DNA from: Candidatus Brocadia sapporoensis
Lineage (GTDB): Bacteria; Planctomycetota; Brocadiia; Brocadiales; Brocadiaceae
NCBI RefSeq assembly: GCF_001753675.2
Contig: NZ_MJUW02000044.1
Span: forward strand, 1-50,446
Length of the DNA stretch: 50,446 bases
Direction of reading: 5' to 3'
Shown here in pieces: positions 6,470-49,028 of the stretch (positions are counted from its first letter, which is position 1; every line of letters begins with the position of its first letter). The position numbers were made by a program, and so were the translations under genes. The notes under the pieces were generated by a model, which was not told the DNA's origin, did not search any database, and worked only from the letters and a program-made list of their open reading frames with translations.

Positions 6470-7672
6470 ATGGGTAAAGAGGTATTTAAGCGAACGAAGC
6501 CGCATGTGAACGTAGGGACGATAGGGCATGTGGATCATGGGAAGACGACGTTGACAGCGGTGATCACGCATGTATTGGCGAAGCAGGGGTTAGCGAAGGA
6601 GAGGCCGTACGATTCGATCGACAAGGCGCCGGAGGAGAGGGAGCGGGGAATAACTATAGCGATATCCCATGTGGAGTATGAGACGCAGAAGAGGCATTAT
6701 GCGCATGTGGATTGTCCTGGTCATGCGGATTATGTGAAGAACATGATAACGGGGGCGGCGCAGATGGATGGTGCGATATTGGTGGTGAGTGCGCCAGATG
6801 GGCCGATGCCACAGACGCGGGAGCATATACTTTTGGCAAGGCAGGTTGGGGTGCCGCGGATTGTGGTATTCATGAACAAGGTGGATATGCTGGAGGATAA
6901 GGAGTTGCTGGATTTGGTGGAGTTGGAGGTACGGGAGTTGTTGAGTAAGTATAATTTTCCTGGGGATGAGATCCCTGTGGTAAGGGGTTCTGCGCTCAAG
7001 GCGAATGAGTGTGGGTGTGGAAGTGCGTCGTGCGCGAATTGTGGTCCGGTGTTGAAGCTGATGGATGCGGTGGATGCGTATATCCCTGATCCTGTGAGAG
7101 AGATAGACAAGCCGTTTTTGATGTCTGTGGAAGATGTATTTAGTATTAAGGGTCGTGGGACGGTAGGAACTGGTAGGGTGGAGAGGGGTCGTGTGAAAGT
7201 TGGGGATGAGGTGGAGATAGTGGGGATCAAGCCCGATGTGAAGAAGTCGATAGTGACAGGGGTTGAGATGTTTAACAAGACGTTGGATGAGGGGCAGGCT
7301 GGTGACAATTTAGGGGTATTGCTGAGAGGTGTGGAGAAGGAGGATTTGGAGCGTGGTCAGGTGTTGTCGAAGCCTGGGAGTATAACGCCGCATAAGAAGT
7401 ATGAGGCAGAAGCGTATATTTTGACGAAGGAAGAGGGGGGAAGGCACACGCCGTTCTTTAACGGGTACCGGCCGCAGTTTTATTTTAGAACAACGGATGT
7501 GACGGGAGTGGTGAGTTTGACGGGGGGTGCTGAGATGGTGATGCCTGGAGACAATGTGAAGGTAAATGTGGAGTTGTTGACGGCGGTGGCGATGGATGAG
7601 GGGCTGCGGTTTGCCATTCGGGAAGGTGGAAAGACTGTCGGCGCAGGTGTCGTTACTAAAATTATTGAATAA
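6470..7672 (+). CDS. tuf: Elongation factor Tu, copy 1
   Basis: GTP-dependent carrier of aminoacyl-tRNA to the ribosome, 400 residues. GTPase motifs are GHVDHGKT at 19-26, DCPGH at 81-85 and NKVD at 136-139, followed by the two beta-barrel domains. Between G domain elements, a cysteine cluster (C181, C183, C188, C191) replaces the segment found in E. coli EF-Tu. GGGGAG just upstream serves as ribosome-binding site. The DNA is identical to the second copy at 22299-23501 from one base before the ATG to three bases after the stop. Codon use is rich in GTG, TTG and GCG, unlike the neighbouring genes. Confidence 0.98.
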
Positions 7673-22298: not shown

Positions 22299-23501
22299 AT
22301 GGGTAAAGAGGTATTTAAGCGAACGAAGCCGCATGTGAACGTAGGGACGATAGGGCATGTGGATCATGGGAAGACGACGTTGACAGCGGTGATCACGCAT
22401 GTATTGGCGAAGCAGGGGTTAGCGAAGGAGAGGCCGTACGATTCGATCGACAAGGCGCCGGAGGAGAGGGAGCGGGGAATAACTATAGCGATATCCCATG
22501 TGGAGTATGAGACGCAGAAGAGGCATTATGCGCATGTGGATTGTCCTGGTCATGCGGATTATGTGAAGAACATGATAACGGGGGCGGCGCAGATGGATGG
22601 TGCGATATTGGTGGTGAGTGCGCCAGATGGGCCGATGCCACAGACGCGGGAGCATATACTTTTGGCAAGGCAGGTTGGGGTGCCGCGGATTGTGGTATTC
22701 ATGAACAAGGTGGATATGCTGGAGGATAAGGAGTTGCTGGATTTGGTGGAGTTGGAGGTACGGGAGTTGTTGAGTAAGTATAATTTTCCTGGGGATGAGA
22801 TCCCTGTGGTAAGGGGTTCTGCGCTCAAGGCGAATGAGTGTGGGTGTGGAAGTGCGTCGTGCGCGAATTGTGGTCCGGTGTTGAAGCTGATGGATGCGGT
22901 GGATGCGTATATCCCTGATCCTGTGAGAGAGATAGACAAGCCGTTTTTGATGTCTGTGGAAGATGTATTTAGTATTAAGGGTCGTGGGACGGTAGGAACT
23001 GGTAGGGTGGAGAGGGGTCGTGTGAAAGTTGGGGATGAGGTGGAGATAGTGGGGATCAAGCCCGATGTGAAGAAGTCGATAGTGACAGGGGTTGAGATGT
23101 TTAACAAGACGTTGGATGAGGGGCAGGCTGGTGACAATTTAGGGGTATTGCTGAGAGGTGTGGAGAAGGAGGATTTGGAGCGTGGTCAGGTGTTGTCGAA
23201 GCCTGGGAGTATAACGCCGCATAAGAAGTATGAGGCAGAAGCGTATATTTTGACGAAGGAAGAGGGGGGAAGGCACACGCCGTTCTTTAACGGGTACCGG
23301 CCGCAGTTTTATTTTAGAACAACGGATGTGACGGGAGTGGTGAGTTTGACGGGGGGTGCTGAGATGGTGATGCCTGGAGACAATGTGAAGGTAAATGTGG
23401 AGTTGTTGACGGCGGTGGCGATGGATGAGGGGCTGCGGTTTGCCATTCGGGAAGGTGGAAAGACTGTCGGCGCAGGTGTCGTTACTAAAATTATTGAATA
23501 A
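22299..23501 (+). CDS. tuf: Elongation factor Tu, copy 2
   Basis: A second gene for the same 400-residue EF-Tu, at the classic str-operon position after fusA. The protein and DNA match copy 1 (6470-7672), and identity stops one base before the ATG and three bases after the stop. AATCGGAGG gives a strong ribosome-binding site. Such abrupt borders are the mark of gene conversion between paralogues. The G-rich codon pattern contrasts with the AT-richer fusA and rpsJ on either side. Confidence 0.98.
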
Positions 23502-42785: not shown

Positions 42786-44414
42786 TCAACTCTTATAGAC
42801 GGAAAGCACCGATTCGAGTTCTTGTACAGATTTTCCTAGTGATTCTCTTACCTGTTCAAGAAAGCGGTAGCTTTCTTCGATCTTGTCTTTGAGTATCAAT
42901 TGAATGATGAGGATTTGGCTAATTCTTTCGATGAGCTTATCGGCATCAAGCAAATTTAAACGGGAAATGGTTTCTTTGATTTCGAGCTTTTGATAGATCA
43001 GATCTACCGAAGGGGTGAGCGTTCCGGTAAAGTCGTCAAACAGGGCATGTTCCTTTTTTAAATTCAACTGGTTTGCCGCTGCGTCAATGACGGTGACGGT
43101 CATCGGTGACGGCCCGCAGAGGTAAAACACAATGTCCTGGTCCGGAGAGAGATATTTTCTCAGAAGAGGACCAATGAATCCAATTTCACCCTTCCATTGT
43201 TTTTCCTGATTATCCACAAATCCTCGTTCCTTTACGAGGAGTTTGGCTTCCAAAGAAAGAGAATGATAACACTGCTTGTCGATATCATTCAATTCGACGG
43301 GGTTATCGCCGCGAAATGCGCCGGAAAGCACCGGTACCAGTTTAAACCGAGGATTTTTTTGCTGCCAGATTAACCACTTGGGTAAATAGGCCATGGGAAT
43401 ATCCTGAAATCGTCTTTCCCCCAGGAAAAAAATGGCGGTATCCTGCCTGCCTTCACGAAACCATTGCTCTAAAAGTGCTAAAATAGGCGCTAAACCGGCG
43501 CCGCCGGCAACAAAGACGGCGGTGTGGGGTTCTTCCTTCAGGGTAAAATGGCCATACGGTCCCGTAAAACGGATCTTTTCACCCCAGAAAAAATTCCACA
43601 GACTTTTTTCTAAAAGATAATTATGCACACAAGCGGGTCCTATGCAGGGAGGACCGCCCTTTTCTATCGACATGTTCGGATGAGAGGGGGCCATACGAAC
43701 AATGAGCTTCAGAAGGTCTGGTTCTGTAGATGCAAGTGAATAGCCCCTGTACAACGTTGTGCCGGGTACATAGGGAATAAACTCTTTTCCTAAAAGCTTA
43801 CATGCCTCTTTAATGAAACTCTCATATTTTTTATAATATTCTTCAACAAAATCTTCCGGGATTGCCAACTGGATATATTGGCCTGGCTTGTATTGAATTG
43901 GTCTTGATGGTAACAGCCACATCTCCATCTTATCGCTGGTAATCGCCCGTTTCTTAATTACCCTGGCGGTGTATTTCCTGACATGCAAAGTGTCTTTCGG
44001 CAGATAAAGGCTTACATCCTTGTCTACCCTAACCTGGCAGGCCAACCGCGTATATCCATCGCCCGTTCCCTGTTCTAAAAATTTTCTGGCTGCCTCTCTC
44101 GTACGCATGTCAAAATGGGGGGTTTCTACCGCAGTATAAGTTCCGACATTCGTGTAGAGTTTTACCTTACATTGTCCGCAGGTGGCCATACCGCCGCACG
44201 CTGCCGGAATGTTAAATCCCCTGTTCTGAAGGAGTGAAAGCAGCTTTTCTCCGCCTTCGATATCGAGTTCCTTTTTATACTCATCATCGCTTACAACAGT
44301 GATCTTGCGTTTCTCACCACGGCCAAAAAATTGATAGATAATCTCGCTAAAGATGCTCAGCAGCAATACTAAAAAGGACAGGATACCTGCACCAAGGAGG
44401 AGAGATGTGATCAT
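42786..44414 (-). CDS. nqrF: NqrF-like NADH-oxidising subunit with C-terminal extension
   Basis: The 542-residue electron-input subunit of a sodium-translocating NADH:quinone oxidoreductase. It has an N-terminal membrane anchor (about 3-29) and a 2Fe-2S ferredoxin domain with C73, C79, C82 and C126. A flavin domain with YKPGQY and RGYS (223-226) and an NADH domain with GGAGLAP (304-310) follow. The typical family end, FDDFTG, is at about 459-464, after which 78 further, probably helical residues follow. It is about 135 residues longer than the roughly 408-residue Vibrio NqrF. It is the last gene of the operon, and its ATG overlaps the stop of the upstream small gene by four bases. Confidence 0.92.
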   Translation of the reverse strand: MITSLLLGAGILSFLVLLLSIFSEIIYQFFGRGEKRKITVVSDDEYKKELDIEGGEKLLSLLQNRGFNIPAACGGMATCGQCKVKLYTNVGTYTAVETPHFDMRTREAARKFLEQGTGDGYTRLACQVRVDKDVSLYLPKDTLHVRKYTARVIKKRAITSDKMEMWLLPSRPIQYKPGQYIQLAIPEDFVEEYYKKYESFIKEACKLLGKEFIPYVPGTTLYRGYSLASTEPDLLKLIVRMAPSHPNMSIEKGGPPCIGPACVHNYLLEKSLWNFFWGEKIRFTGPYGHFTLKEEPHTAVFVAGGAGLAPILALLEQWFREGRQDTAIFFLGERRFQDIPMAYLPKWLIWQQKNPRFKLVPVLSGAFRGDNPVELNDIDKQCYHSLSLEAKLLVKERGFVDNQEKQWKGEIGFIGPLLRKYLSPDQDIVFYLCGPSPMTVTVIDAAANQLNLKKEHALFDDFTGTLTPSVDLIYQKLEIKETISRLNLLDADKLIERISQILIIQLILKDKIEESYRFLEQVRESLGKSVQELESVLSVYKS

Positions 44415-44740
44415 TGGTTTACTCCAAGCTTCGTTTCTATGCCTTTTAATTCTTCTTCCTGCACAATTTCATATGATTCTACCATCGTTCCTTCAAAAAG
44501 ACGCTTGCAGTGAGGAAATGTTTTTACCCTTTGGTGTGGTACATTATCCCGCCAGGCATTTAATGCCTCGTCCTTTTCTTGCCAATGGTATGAATCGTTT
44601 TCATCCTCAAATTCTTTAAATGAGTTGTTATGTTTTTTCTTAAAAAGTTCTAAGGATTTTTTTATGGTCTGAATTTCAGAGATCGGATCCAATCTCACGA
44701 AATTAATAATTTCATTTTTATCTATTCCTATGGCCTTCAT
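44411..44740 (-). CDS. Small nqr-operon protein, possibly of the antibiotic-biosynthesis-monooxygenase fold
   Basis: A 109-residue hydrophilic protein encoded between nqrDE and nqrF. It begins 13 bases after nqrDE stops and overlaps the nqrF start as ATGA, so it is a true operon member. It has no membrane segment or signal peptide and only one cysteine, so it is not the four-cysteine maturation factor NqrM. The segment YHWQEKDEALNAWRDNVPHQ (about 51-70) resembles the core of ABM-type (antibiotic biosynthesis monooxygenase, dimeric ferredoxin-like) domains. That match is weak and by eye only. Its function is unknown. A soluble accessory or assembly factor for the complex is possible. Confidence 0.7.
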   Translation of the reverse strand: MKAIGIDKNEIINFVRLDPISEIQTIKKSLELFKKKHNNSFKEFEDENDSYHWQEKDEALNAWRDNVPHQRVKTFPHCKRLFEGTMVESYEIVQEEELKGIETKLGVNQ

Positions 44741-44753
44741 TTCTGTGCCCCAT

Positions 44754-46169
44754 TCAAAAAATATGAATCATGCCTATACCTGTAAAGATAGCCGCCATCA
44801 TGCCAAGGAGCAGGATGGCGATTGTATCTTCATCCCAGGCGGTCGTGGGGACAAAAAGACGCTGACGCCTGAGCAAGGCGAGCCACACGACAACCATCAT
44901 CCAGTGAAGTCCATACCCAAACGCCGTTACGGTTGTGACGAGAAATTTTGCACCTGTAGGTATCGTAAACGTGGCACTGGCAAGGACAATGCAATTGACC
45001 GTGATAAGTTCCAAAAACTGTCCCATTTGTTCATAGATGTTTTTAGCGAATTTTCTTAAAAGAACGCTTAAGATTTGAACGAACACGGCGATGGTGACAA
45101 TAAAAACGGTTAAGTAGAAGATATTTTCTAACCGGAGGGGGATTGGAGAATATCTTGATAAAAAATTGCTGCATCGCACCAGGATATACTGATATACTAT
45201 CCAGTTTAGTGCAGTGGACAACGTTGTCACAATAATTACTGCAATTCCCATCTTCCACGCCGCATCTATCTGGCGTGATTTATTGATCAGGGGGCAGAGT
45301 CCTAAAAGCTTGCTCAGCACAATTCCATCGAAAAAGAGTGCATTCAGAAGCACAGGTAAAAGTATGATAAACTGCTGGTGCAAAGAGGGAATGGTTTTTA
45401 TGTTGACAGCGAGGCTGAGAAAAAGACATATACCCAATCCTAAAGCAACCAGGGATGCCCTGGAGATCCCCCGTTTTGGGCGGGATCTGACAAGAGGAAT
45501 TTCGCAATTGGAGGCAGAAGCACACTCACAAGAGGAAACTTCCGGGTATACGATTCCTGTCTTCAGGAGAAACGGACGAAGCAAGAGTCTGAAAGCGGCA
45601 AGGGCAAAAAATCCACCTACGGGGGTAACCATAAGAACCACCTTTGGGAAGGTGGCTGGCAGTACAGGAAAGCCCATGATCGCTCCAAAACCCAAGGGCT
45701 CTCTTAAAAATGCCAGCAGGATCAGGGCGATTGAGTAGCCGAGGCATGCCTTTAAAATCTTTTTTTGAGCTTCCCAAAAGTCAATCGTTAATCCCTCGGA
45801 GATTACCGCAAGCACGATACAATTTGTGGTAATCAGGTCGATATATGCCTTTATGTTTGCTGTAATTGTAGGAACAAAGGCCTGCGCAAAAAATCCAAAG
45901 ATCGCTACAAAGACGGAGATGATAATCATTAAAAGGGAAATTTTATGATGCGTTCCTGCGGTAGATATCAGCCGTTTGAAAGGATAGACCACGCAAAAAC
46001 TGCCAGCTGTTACCAGGGTTACACCAATGCCCATAGTCAGAGAATTTTCCAGTTTGTTCGTTACAGCCAGAGAAGAACAAAATCCAAGACCGGCACCTGC
46101 AGTCAAAATGAGATTGTCTCTCATAAAATATTTGGAAACTCTCCGTGCGGTTCGCTTTAAACCTACCAT
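44754..46169 (-). CDS. nqrDE: NqrD-NqrE fusion, membrane subunit of Na+-NQR-like complex
   Basis: One 471-residue protein combines two homologous six-helix subunits. The N half is NqrD-like: LGFCSSLAVTNKLENS near 22-37 and LITTNCIVLAVISEG near 110-124. The C half is NqrE-like: LGLCPLINKS, MGIAVIIVTTLSTALN and ELITVNCIVLASATF. A linker containing CECASASNC joins them. All four cysteines that sit in the membrane iron-sulfur site of NqrD/NqrE have counterparts. I start at ATG 46169, which has AAGGGA seven bases upstream. A TTG at 46193 is less likely. It overlaps nqrC by 7 bases. Confidence 0.9.
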   Translation of the reverse strand: MVGLKRTARRVSKYFMRDNLILTAGAGLGFCSSLAVTNKLENSLTMGIGVTLVTAGSFCVVYPFKRLISTAGTHHKISLLMIIISVFVAIFGFFAQAFVPTITANIKAYIDLITTNCIVLAVISEGLTIDFWEAQKKILKACLGYSIALILLAFLREPLGFGAIMGFPVLPATFPKVVLMVTPVGGFFALAAFRLLLRPFLLKTGIVYPEVSSCECASASNCEIPLVRSRPKRGISRASLVALGLGICLFLSLAVNIKTIPSLHQQFIILLPVLLNALFFDGIVLSKLLGLCPLINKSRQIDAAWKMGIAVIIVTTLSTALNWIVYQYILVRCSNFLSRYSPIPLRLENIFYLTVFIVTIAVFVQILSVLLRKFAKNIYEQMGQFLELITVNCIVLASATFTIPTGAKFLVTTVTAFGYGLHWMMVVVWLALLRRQRLFVPTTAWDEDTIAILLLGMMAAIFTGIGMIHIF

Positions 46170-46906
46170 TTTACGTCCCTTTGACCTTCCCAAAATTCTT
46201 TCATGGCATCGTTAATAAACTCTTCTATTCCCCTGCTGGTATTTGTAGCACCGGTAATCGCTTCAACCTCGTTAGCGCCTTCAGCCTTTTTCCCCTTTAT
46301 AACGAATATTCTGGGTCGCACCTTTTTGCCGATAAATTGCTTTTTGAACGAATCTTCAATGATCCTTCCTCCCAAACCCGGCGTTTCGCTATGGTCCAGT
46401 ACCTCAATACCCTTGAGCGTTTCCAGATCGGGCTCAACACAGATAAAAAGTGACATGGTGCTCGATTTATTATAACCATATCCTATCTTGGATTCGACAA
46501 AACCAATACCCTGCAAATGTCCGTCTTTCATATATTTGTAAAATTTTCTCGCATGTTCGTCTTTCGGTTTTCCTTCAACTGTCTGTGTTCCAGCCGGCTG
46601 AACTTCCCATGTTGCCTTTGGTTCTTCAACGGTTATGTTTTTTCGAAAAACGTCCTGGATGTCTTTTTTATCAATGCTCTTGAAAGTAAAACCTGCAATC
46701 TTACGTTCTCTGACATGATACGGTATACTAAAAATATCTAACACTGCCTTTTTTTCCTTTGTGTCGTAGTATTCAGCAATTTTTGGGGCAGTAAAAACAT
46801 ATACGATAAGAAGCCCCGCACAGGGTAAAAAGGTAATGAAGAGGATAGACACGATCCGGGATAAAATTATTTTTAATTCTGCCGGATATTTCAATGGTAT
46901 TCTCAT
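46163..46906 (-). CDS. nqrC: NqrC-like subunit with covalent FMN site
   Basis: A 247-residue subunit with one N-terminal membrane helix (about 18-40) and a periplasmic flavin domain. EAITGAT at 215-221 matches the flavin-transferase target motif, so FMN should be attached to T221. LDHSETPGLGGRI (170-182) is the other family signature. Start and stop overlap nqrB and nqrDE, so expression is translationally coupled. No apbE flavin transferase gene lies in the window. Confidence 0.93.
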   Translation of the reverse strand: MRIPLKYPAELKIILSRIVSILFITFLPCAGLLIVYVFTAPKIAEYYDTKEKKAVLDIFSIPYHVRERKIAGFTFKSIDKKDIQDVFRKNITVEEPKATWEVQPAGTQTVEGKPKDEHARKFYKYMKDGHLQGIGFVESKIGYGYNKSSTMSLFICVEPDLETLKGIEVLDHSETPGLGGRIIEDSFKKQFIGKKVRPRIFVIKGKKAEGANEVEAITGATNTSRGIEEFINDAMKEFWEGQRDVKW

Positions 46907-47997
46907 AGACGATATCGTATTTTTACCATAAGCGATTGAATTGGGATAGCCAGAAGATTCATAAGCAAAATGGAATACATAACACCTTCAGGCAATGTGG
47001 TAAAGTCACGTATCAGCACGGTAACAAATCCACACCCTGCTCCAAAGATCCATTTTGCCGTTTGATTATACGTCGTGGTTATCGGGTCTGTAGCCATAAA
47101 AAAAGCCCCGAAGATTAATCCACCGCTCAGGAGTTGAAAGAGAGGTGGTGCAACAGTCTTCCCCATAATCAGGGAAAAAAATACGGAAAGGACAAATACG
47201 CTTCCTAGATAGGACACCGGTATTCTCCAATTCGCCACTTTTATTTTCATCAGCCACAATCCGGATATTATCAATGCAAGGCGGCAAGTTTCGCCGAGAG
47301 AGCCTGTTTCCGTACCCAACAACAGAGAAAGGTATGATGGGATTTCTCCGTTCGTCTTAAATGCTGTGAATGGGGTGGCATGGGTAACGGCATCCAACCC
47401 TGCATACGTCCCCTGCATGCCGGCAAGTGGCATTTGATAACCGGTAACCAGAAATGCGGGGAAACAAATAGTCAAAAACAAACGACTGAAGAGTGCCGGG
47501 TTTACCAGGTTGTTTCCTACCCCACCTAGAATATTTCTGAAAAGAATAGCCAGTGCTGCCCCTAAACCAACCAGCCAAAGCGGCGCCTGAGGCGGTAGAA
47601 TAGCAGGAATAAAGAGGCAGGTAACAAAGCCTCCTTCGCTGATATGGTCCTCCCGCGCAATGATTACCCAAAGGACATCAACAATAAAAGTACCCGCAAT
47701 AAAAGAAATGAGTAGTTTGGGGATTACGCATTGCCAACCGAACAGATACATTGCTGGCAATACCCAGCCACCCACTAATGCCACCAGAACGGCGCCCATA
47801 AACCGTTTCACGTCATAATTGTTTCTGATAAAGGGCAGTGTCTGTGTTGTCTCCTTTGGACTGCGAAGGAGTCCGTCAAATGCATCAAAAAGACCTCCAA
47901 AAAGAAAATGAGCAGTACGATGGGTGTGGATAAAAGACTCTGCTATGTTAAGACCCTTGTCCAGGAAGGGTTCTATTGGCTTAAGGAACTTTTTCAT
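46903..47997 (-). CDS. nqrB: NqrB-like integral membrane subunit
   Basis: A 364-residue multi-helix subunit (NqrB/RnfD family), shorter than the roughly 415-residue Vibrio protein. The predicted covalent FMN threonine is T208 in DAVTHAT (202-208), which fits the D-x-x-S/T-x-A-T transferase motif although glycine is replaced by histidine. GNNLVNPALFSRLFL (161-175) and MATDPITTTYNQTAKWIFG near 298-316 are further NqrB/RnfD hallmarks. It overlaps nqrA and nqrC by four bases each. In the Vibrio complex NqrB contributes to the quinone site and the sodium pathway. Confidence 0.92.
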   Translation of the reverse strand: MKKFLKPIEPFLDKGLNIAESFIHTHRTAHFLFGGLFDAFDGLLRSPKETTQTLPFIRNNYDVKRFMGAVLVALVGGWVLPAMYLFGWQCVIPKLLISFIAGTFIVDVLWVIIAREDHISEGGFVTCLFIPAILPPQAPLWLVGLGAALAILFRNILGGVGNNLVNPALFSRLFLTICFPAFLVTGYQMPLAGMQGTYAGLDAVTHATPFTAFKTNGEIPSYLSLLLGTETGSLGETCRLALIISGLWLMKIKVANWRIPVSYLGSVFVLSVFFSLIMGKTVAPPLFQLLSGGLIFGAFFMATDPITTTYNQTAKWIFGAGCGFVTVLIRDFTTLPEGVMYSILLMNLLAIPIQSLMVKIRYRL

Positions 47998-49028
47998 TCG
48001 TGTTTACCCAGTGCCTTGCACTCTATGATTATTTTCTGGAGTTCTAATTTCGATGGACAAATGAAACTGCACAGTCCGCATTCAATACATTTTCCCATAT
48101 TATAAAGCCTTGCCTTGTGTTTTTCCCCTCGCACATAACTGTGATAATAAAGTGCAGGTTCTAAATCTACCGGGCAAATATCATCGCAGAAATTACAATA
48201 GACGCACCGTCGCGATTCCCCGATCAGGTTTGTCGTAAATGCCAACTCATCCGCCTTGAACATGGGAAACAGTGCCTTCCGATTCTTCTCTTCCAAAACT
48301 ACGATGTTGTTAACAGACCAGTCAATTTTCTGCGAAAAATCGGTTATTTCTTTACCCCGTAAGGGGCCGTTTATGAACACACGGAACGTAACCGCCTCTC
48401 TGACCTTATTTTTCAGTATCTTTTCAACAGAGGTACCCAGTTCAACGTGAATAATTTCGTTTTCCCGCAAACCGGTGCCCGATAGGGCAAGATAGCGAGA
48501 AGTTACGTCTTTTCTCATAATACCCTGCTCATGCATGGCTGATATGGTTTGTGGGTCTAGTATTAAGATTCCAAACGGCTTCGTATCCTGGCCAAAATTC
48601 ACATCCATACCCAAAACGATCTTTGTCAGGATGACGGGGTCATCCTGGGGATATTTTGCAGAAAGCGAAAATACCCTTATCCAATCTTCACCACCGGCAA
48701 AATTCCTTGCTTCCTCAACAACCCTGTCTTCTTTCTCTGTGATTGCAAGATAAAGCCTTGCATCCGAAAAATACGTCTTTTGTATCTCTTTTATCATGTT
48801 GAAGAATACGATAGTTTTATGTTTCAGGATTACCCAGTTGGGCAATGCCCACGGTTCTGTAGGGCAAAGATTCACAATAACATGCTTGATCTTCTGGCCG
48901 AAGACTGGAAACTGAAACGTTTCCGGCGTGCTGTCAGAGGATATCTCGTCTATAATATTGCAAACCGATAATGGGTAAGCATCCAGCAGATGAAACCCAC
49001 CTTTAAAACCCATGGTTTCTTTTTTCAT
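47994..49028 (-). CDS. NqrA/RnfC-like subunit with two 4Fe-4S clusters
   Basis: A 344-residue soluble subunit at the nqrA position of the operon. The C-terminal part has two ferredoxin-type motifs, CVYCNFCDDICP (275-286) and CIECGLCSFICP (314-325), as in RnfC. Vibrio NqrA has none. The middle (about 95-260) follows the NqrA/RnfC nucleotide-binding and SLBB-like pattern (YLALSGTGLRENEIIHVELGT). The usual N-terminal lipoyl-like region is missing, making it shorter than NqrA (about 446) or RnfC. It could pass electrons from a ferredoxin, from NADH through NqrF, or to a quinone. The ribosome-binding site is weak. Confidence 0.85.
   Translation of the reverse strand: MKKETMGFKGGFHLLDAYPLSVCNIIDEISSDSTPETFQFPVFGQKIKHVIVNLCPTEPWALPNWVILKHKTIVFFNMIKEIQKTYFSDARLYLAITEKEDRVVEEARNFAGGEDWIRVFSLSAKYPQDDPVILTKIVLGMDVNFGQDTKPFGILILDPQTISAMHEQGIMRKDVTSRYLALSGTGLRENEIIHVELGTSVEKILKNKVREAVTFRVFINGPLRGKEITDFSQKIDWSVNNIVVLEEKNRKALFPMFKADELAFTTNLIGESRRCVYCNFCDDICPVDLEPALYYHSYVRGEKHKARLYNMGKCIECGLCSFICPSKLELQKIIIECKALGKHE

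Follow-up and report, generated by a model that had tools for sequence, protein, structure and literature searches.

The window analysed here is the whole 50,446-nucleotide stretch of Candidatus Brocadia sapporoensis contig NZ_MJUW02000044.1, and its minus strand carries a gene cluster in the order A, B, C, DE, x, F. The genes and the features within them are as follows.

47994..49028, minus strand: A subunit of the RnfC/NqrA superfamily, 344 aa, truncated, with two [4Fe-4S] motifs (open reading frame and Pfam Fer4 dicluster)
48171..48206, minus strand: 4Fe-4S motif 1 of A, residues 275-286, CVYCNFCDDICP (sequence; invariant)
48054..48089, minus strand: 4Fe-4S motif 2 of A, residues 314-325, CIECGLCSFICP (sequence; invariant)
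46903..47997, minus strand: B subunit, NqrB/RnfD (PF03116, 7e-77, and alignments)
46163..46906, minus strand: C subunit, NqrC/RnfG (PF04205, 7e-15)
44754..46169 from the likely ATG, minus strand: fused NqrD-NqrE with a 471-aa product (PF02508 twice)
44411..44740, minus strand: x, a TumE-like remnant (PF20126, 3e-9)
42786..44414, minus strand: F subunit, NqrF, 542 aa, with a membrane helix and 2Fe-2S, FAD and NADH domains (nqrF, 5e-43)
44037..44198, minus strand: 2Fe-2S domain of F with Cys 73, 79, 82 and 126 (invariant in 11 sequences)

The initial annotation had taken the order A-B-C-DE-x-F, together with NqrF, as the mark of Na+-NQR. The order and the identification of NqrF hold, but x is ruled out as a subunit: it is what is left of a TumE-type toxin-antitoxin cassette of two genes inserted between nqrDE and nqrF, the pair having decayed into the single fused reading frame at 44411-44740. 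An intact two-gene TumE-type cassette fills the same slot in three relatives (L038:14295-14892, L039:14292-14889 and L042:6356-6953), a fourth has a PemK-like pair in the gap, judged by eye (L048:14784-15100), and most relatives have no cassette there. The nqrDE-nqrF gap is a recurrent landing site of toxin-antitoxin cassettes in Brocadiaceae, with the TumE-type pair occurring in several Brocadia. Elsewhere in the window, two elongation factor Tu-like genes (6470-7672 and 22299-23501), identical over their full 1203 bases, flank a gene pair of rpoB/rpoC size.

The operon A-B-C-DE(fused)-F is conserved in Candidatus Brocadia, Jettenia, Kuenenia, Loosdrechtia and Scalindua, with nqrD and nqrE joined in one reading frame in all Brocadiaceae and Scalindua operons read. 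After loci from Candidatus Brocadia itself, the next relatives are Jettenia, Kuenenia and Loosdrechtia; those at 40-52% identity are mostly Scalindua. All complete Brocadiales operons read encode NqrF, and RnfB was found in the operon of no Brocadiales relative read. Nor do the neighbouring genes include a conserved partner for the A clusters, whether RnfB or another redox protein.

Among the core subunits, B has the NqrB-type N-terminal stretch, which RnfD lacks, and an FMN motif, DAVTHATP, at residues 202-209. In alignments it has a glycine at the position of V. cholerae G140, a residue present in every NqrF system and in none of the RNF systems examined, and a threonine (valine in relatives) at the position of G141. 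C carries the TGAT flavinylation motif at residue 218, and a gene for an ApbE flavin transferase lies elsewhere in the genome; DE retains both cysteine pairs of the intramembrane cluster (C31 and C117; C292 and C393). The 2Fe-2S cysteines of F (C73, C79, C82 and C126) and its FAD and NAD motifs are invariant in 11 sequences, and its best PDB matches are V. cholerae NqrF (3e-62); these features mark F as a true NqrF whose 2Fe-2S site is intact. An internal insertion and a C-terminal extension of about 75 aa in F occur only in the anammox families, and our guess would be that they compensate for regions missing from the anammox A.

The subunit in the nqrA position is the unusual component. Two 4Fe-4S motifs had been read at its residues 275-286 and 314-325, and these positions proved exact: C275xxC278xxC281xxxC285P and C314xxC317xxC320xxxC324P are both complete CxxCxxCxxxCP motifs. 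Pfam places 4Fe-4S dicluster domains over residues 272-328, with a faint trace of the Nuo51 FMN fold; the NCBIfam model rnfC (3e-32) scores better than nqrA, both under their cut-offs, and among solved structures A comes nearest to the RnfC subunits 7zc6_C, 9eri_C and 8ahx_C. Identity among A proteins ranges from 46 to 82% across Brocadiaceae and Scalindua, and all eight cysteines are invariant in an alignment of 35 homologues. Of 44 distinct Brocadiales homologues, 43 have both motifs intact, and the remaining one is a frameshifted record. One such motif arose in 36 of 200,000 shuffles of the A protein (about 2 in 10,000), and this rarity, combined with the invariance of the cysteines and their completeness among homologues, indicates that the motifs are not a product of chance.

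The reported absence of an N-terminal part from A is real and conserved. Besides a short N-terminal FxGG arm, the alignment of A homologues with RnfC starts only near residue 150; after the arm, some 115 residues are gone, corresponding to the RnfC barrel-sandwich domain and the FMN/NADH loop GLGGAxFPT, and the second RnfC loop, NGxECEP, reads NLCPTEP in anammox A. A thus has the two [4Fe-4S] motifs of RnfC and lacks its FMN/NADH-binding loops. The truncation extends to all anammox A homologues (333-379 aa, and one 253-aa copy at a contig end). Regions matching the V. cholerae NqrA segments labelled by ubiquinone, Leu32-Met39 and Phe131-Lys138, and the docking patch for NqrF that the same subunit holds (PMC9325719), are absent as well, which makes anammox A unusual even among the related enzymes described below. 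The identification of A as an ordinary NqrA or an ordinary RnfC fails in each case on both sequence and tree, and the canonical NqrA examined all lack both cysteine motifs.

Compared with canonical Na+-NQR, the window complex shares the NqrF entry module, the operon order, the flavin and intramembrane-cluster residues and the NqrB N-terminal stretch. It differs in that A keeps two 4Fe-4S motifs but is missing the N-terminal domain and the greater part of the membrane-anchoring loop, in that D and E are fused, and in the insertion and extension of F. With RNF it shares the C-terminal ferredoxin domain and two [4Fe-4S] motifs of RnfC, which A matches best in both NCBIfam and PDB; unlike RNF, it has no RnfB, no GLGGAxFPT or NGxECEP loop and no barrel-sandwich domain, and it falls outside RNF in trees. 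Together, subunit content and trees bear out the initial annotation on its central point, the predicted complex being NQR-type except that an Fe-S subunit of RnfC type takes the place of NqrA.

We use the name Fe-S NQR for an operon that encodes NqrF together with an A subunit in which both 4Fe-4S motifs are kept and the FMN/NADH loops are not intact, the combination found in the window. The idea that this hybrid is an anammox oddity was rejected, as Fe-S NQR operons also occur in other Planctomycetota (L030, L031, L132, L135 and L137) and in Desulfobacterota (L179, L180 from the cultured Desulfosarcina widdelii, and L184-L187). These resemble the window operon in having NqrF and an A with both motifs and an FMN/NADH site that is not intact, but differ from the anammox versions in their full-length A (445-545 aa), separate D and E, and an F without the anammox extensions; apart from its motifs, the Desulfobacterota A is closest to NqrA. 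NqrA without either motif was found in the Planctomycetota that have canonical NQR and in two Bacteroidota. Matches from Bacilli and Clostridium were rejected as Fe-S NQR, being RNF operons with RnfB. Among these, operons of Clostridium and relatives (L086, L092, L094 and L097) encode RnfB and an RnfC of merely 313-340 aa, in which the usual GLGGAxFPT and NGxECEP are absent where checked (L086 and L092), apparently an independent truncation of RnfC within RNF; many of the RNF operons of Bacilli/Tenericutes (L074-L098) have a very short RnfB of about 87-107 aa, with most polyferredoxin clusters missing. One complete, single-contig Brocadiaceae genome (G021) has no nqr operon but does have rnf A/E-type genes, so not every member of the family requires Fe-S NQR.

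Side-by-side alignment resolves the loss of the FMN/NADH site into a series. At the RNF end, GLGGAxFPT and NGxECEP are present; L030 and L132 retain LGxxGIPT-like residues, L135 and L147 only traces, and the same loop deletion is common to Desulfobacterota and canonical NQR. The eight cysteines are kept through Desulfobacterota and lost only in canonical NqrA, most of which still have the last two as xLCxxVCPxK. Domain models follow a similar course, from RnfC_N, NQRA_SLBB and Fer4 in L030 and L132, through NQRA_N, NQRA_2nd and Fer4 in Desulfosarcina A, to NQRA domains without Fer4 in canonical NqrA.

To place these enzymes phylogenetically, trees were rooted on RNF, following the accepted view that NQR arose from RNF; NQR sampling covered two phyla and two Bacteroidota, mostly from metagenome assemblies. 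In NqrB/RnfD trees all NqrF systems form one clade against RNF (100/100), canonical NQR is nested inside the Fe-S NQRs, and the window complex lies outside the RNF clade with its B on the NQR side. The analysis of A with the NqrA and RnfC families, which the initial annotation had proposed as a check, places the subunit not inside ordinary NqrA but between RnfC and NqrA. A single Fe-S NQR lineage was rejected by AU tests once Desulfobacterota were included (NqrB/RnfD, p 0.0012; without the long-branched Brocadiales, p 0.00019). The A tree computed without the cysteine-motif columns gave the same picture, again rejecting one clade (p ~1e-85, too extreme to be read at face value). One clade was not rejected in a smaller row set without Desulfobacterota (p 0.19), and was compatible with an Fe-S set lacking both Desulfobacterota and Brocadiales (p 0.28). 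The unrooted NqrF tree is compatible with a grade.

The A and B trees arrange the Fe-S NQRs in a grade lying between RNF and canonical NQR, within which the order of the deepest branches, including Brocadiales as the very first, is not firm. The trees show the anammox and sulfate-reducer enzymes as the stem from which textbook NQR arose. A published scenario holds that RnfB was lost and NqrF then recruited while RnfC decays (PMC4014512). The intermediate position of the Fe-S NQR grade implies that the recruitment of NqrF came earlier than the loss of the clusters, and the trees and alignments point to a finer order than that scenario, with NqrF gained and the FMN/NAD site lost first and the 4Fe-4S ligands last.

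On this basis we favor, with a rough probability of 0.55, a reading in which the operon product is an NADH:(mena)quinone oxidoreductase that pumps ions and belongs to the stem Fe-S NQR lineage, with the A clusters serving as a relay or buffer near riboflavin. NADH would be oxidised at NqrF (FAD, 2Fe-2S), and electrons would pass through the intramembrane cluster of DE to the FMN of C and on to the two flavins of B, FMN and riboflavin, in a flow coupled to ion export, probably of Na+, otherwise of H+. A would be a descendant of RnfC that lost the FMN/NAD site and the N-terminal domain and kept two [4Fe-4S] sites, which we infer to be occupied. In RNF, electrons run from RnfD riboflavin to an RnfC cluster, a second cluster, FMN and NAD+, and in the C. 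tetanomorphum complex 11.7 A separate riboflavin from the RnfC cluster (PMC9588780); by homology, the A clusters would adjoin NqrB riboflavin and are expected to lie within electron-transfer distance of it. Since the FMN/NAD stations of RnfC are gone, A should be unable to reduce NAD+, leaving NAD(H) chemistry to NqrF. The most probable role of the clusters would be that of a terminal electron relay or buffer where quinone is reduced, whichever way the current runs; in reverse mode, electrons would run from quinol to NAD+, driven by the ion gradient. In favor of this reading are the complete core with its cofactor-binding residues, NqrF in place of RnfB, the NqrB-type N-terminal stretch and G140 glycine of B, the NqrB/RnfD tree, the ApbE gene, and the strict constraint on the eight cysteines while the FMN/NAD loop decays stepwise. 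The role of the A clusters is its weakest step, and they could be purely structural. Moreover, because the quinone-labelled NqrA regions are absent and G141 is replaced by Thr or Val, the enzyme would need another quinone pocket, or another acceptor.

A structural or vestigial role, with NqrB riboflavin reducing quinone directly as in Vibrio and A only holding the complex together, is rather unlikely. In its favor, canonical NqrA has no cofactor and works nonetheless (PMC12174285), and the FMN/NAD end of the wire in A is gone. Against it stands the retention of 8/8 ligands over two phyla despite strong divergence elsewhere in A. The loss of the NqrA regions tied to quinone binding and NqrF docking, with the replacement of G141, would fit a complex that is no quinone reductase and hands electrons from A to a soluble acceptor of higher potential than NADH. 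We consider this quite improbable, as no candidate partner gene is linked and the NqrB N-terminal stretch, which binds quinone-like inhibitors in V. cholerae (PMC9325719), is kept. It is also conceivable, if unlikely, that Fe-S NQR is a functionally distinct pump in which the A clusters form an active branch, giving electrons to or taking them from some acceptor that is not the NqrB quinone site, and that was remodelled in anammox bacteria through the truncated A, extended F and fused DE.

The initial annotation had further suggested that the complex might bridge the ferredoxin, NADH and quinone pools, with A exchanging electrons with ferredoxin. Two [4Fe-4S] motifs on the cytoplasmic side, perhaps more exposed without the N-terminal domain, and the low-potential electrons required by the Wood-Ljungdahl pathway of anammox bacteria would suit such a bridge, which we nevertheless regard as very improbable and find unsupported. 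Ferredoxin docks on RnfB in RNF, not on RnfC (PMC9588780); the operon has no RnfB, the RnfC FMN/NAD site is deleted, and rnf genes are present separately in the genome. Transfer from NADH to ferredoxin in the pumping direction would be thermodynamically wrong: this uphill flow and outward pumping would share one direction, and a ferredoxin exit at A could therefore not be pump-driven. A route from ferredoxin to quinone through A would circumvent the pump. The proposed tie to a need for reverse electron transport fares no better, as sulfate reducers have the same arrangement and it is not special to organisms with that need. The Brocadia rnf genes are themselves split, with rnfC-D-G on G000:C15 (L032) and rnfA/E-type genes on G000:C64 (L118, L119), and RnfB was not located.

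Reviews describe NqrA as having no redox cofactors, and a literature search of open-licence papers found no prior description of an Fe-S NqrA; the part of the account of the Candidatus Jettenia ecosi NQR consulted here (PMC6828613) leaves the Fe-S motifs of NqrA unmentioned. Fe-S NQRs represent the missing intermediates between RNF and NQR, with NqrF present, the FMN/NAD site decaying or gone, and both 4Fe-4S motifs intact. Were the distinct-pump reading true, canonical NQR would be a secondary, Fe-S-free simplification. The Fe-S NQRs, including the enzyme of cultured Desulfosarcina widdelii, make the role of a cofactor-bearing NqrA measurable and, for anammox bacteria, the putative clusters would add to the cofactors of a complex that is commonly depicted as a plain Na+-NQR.
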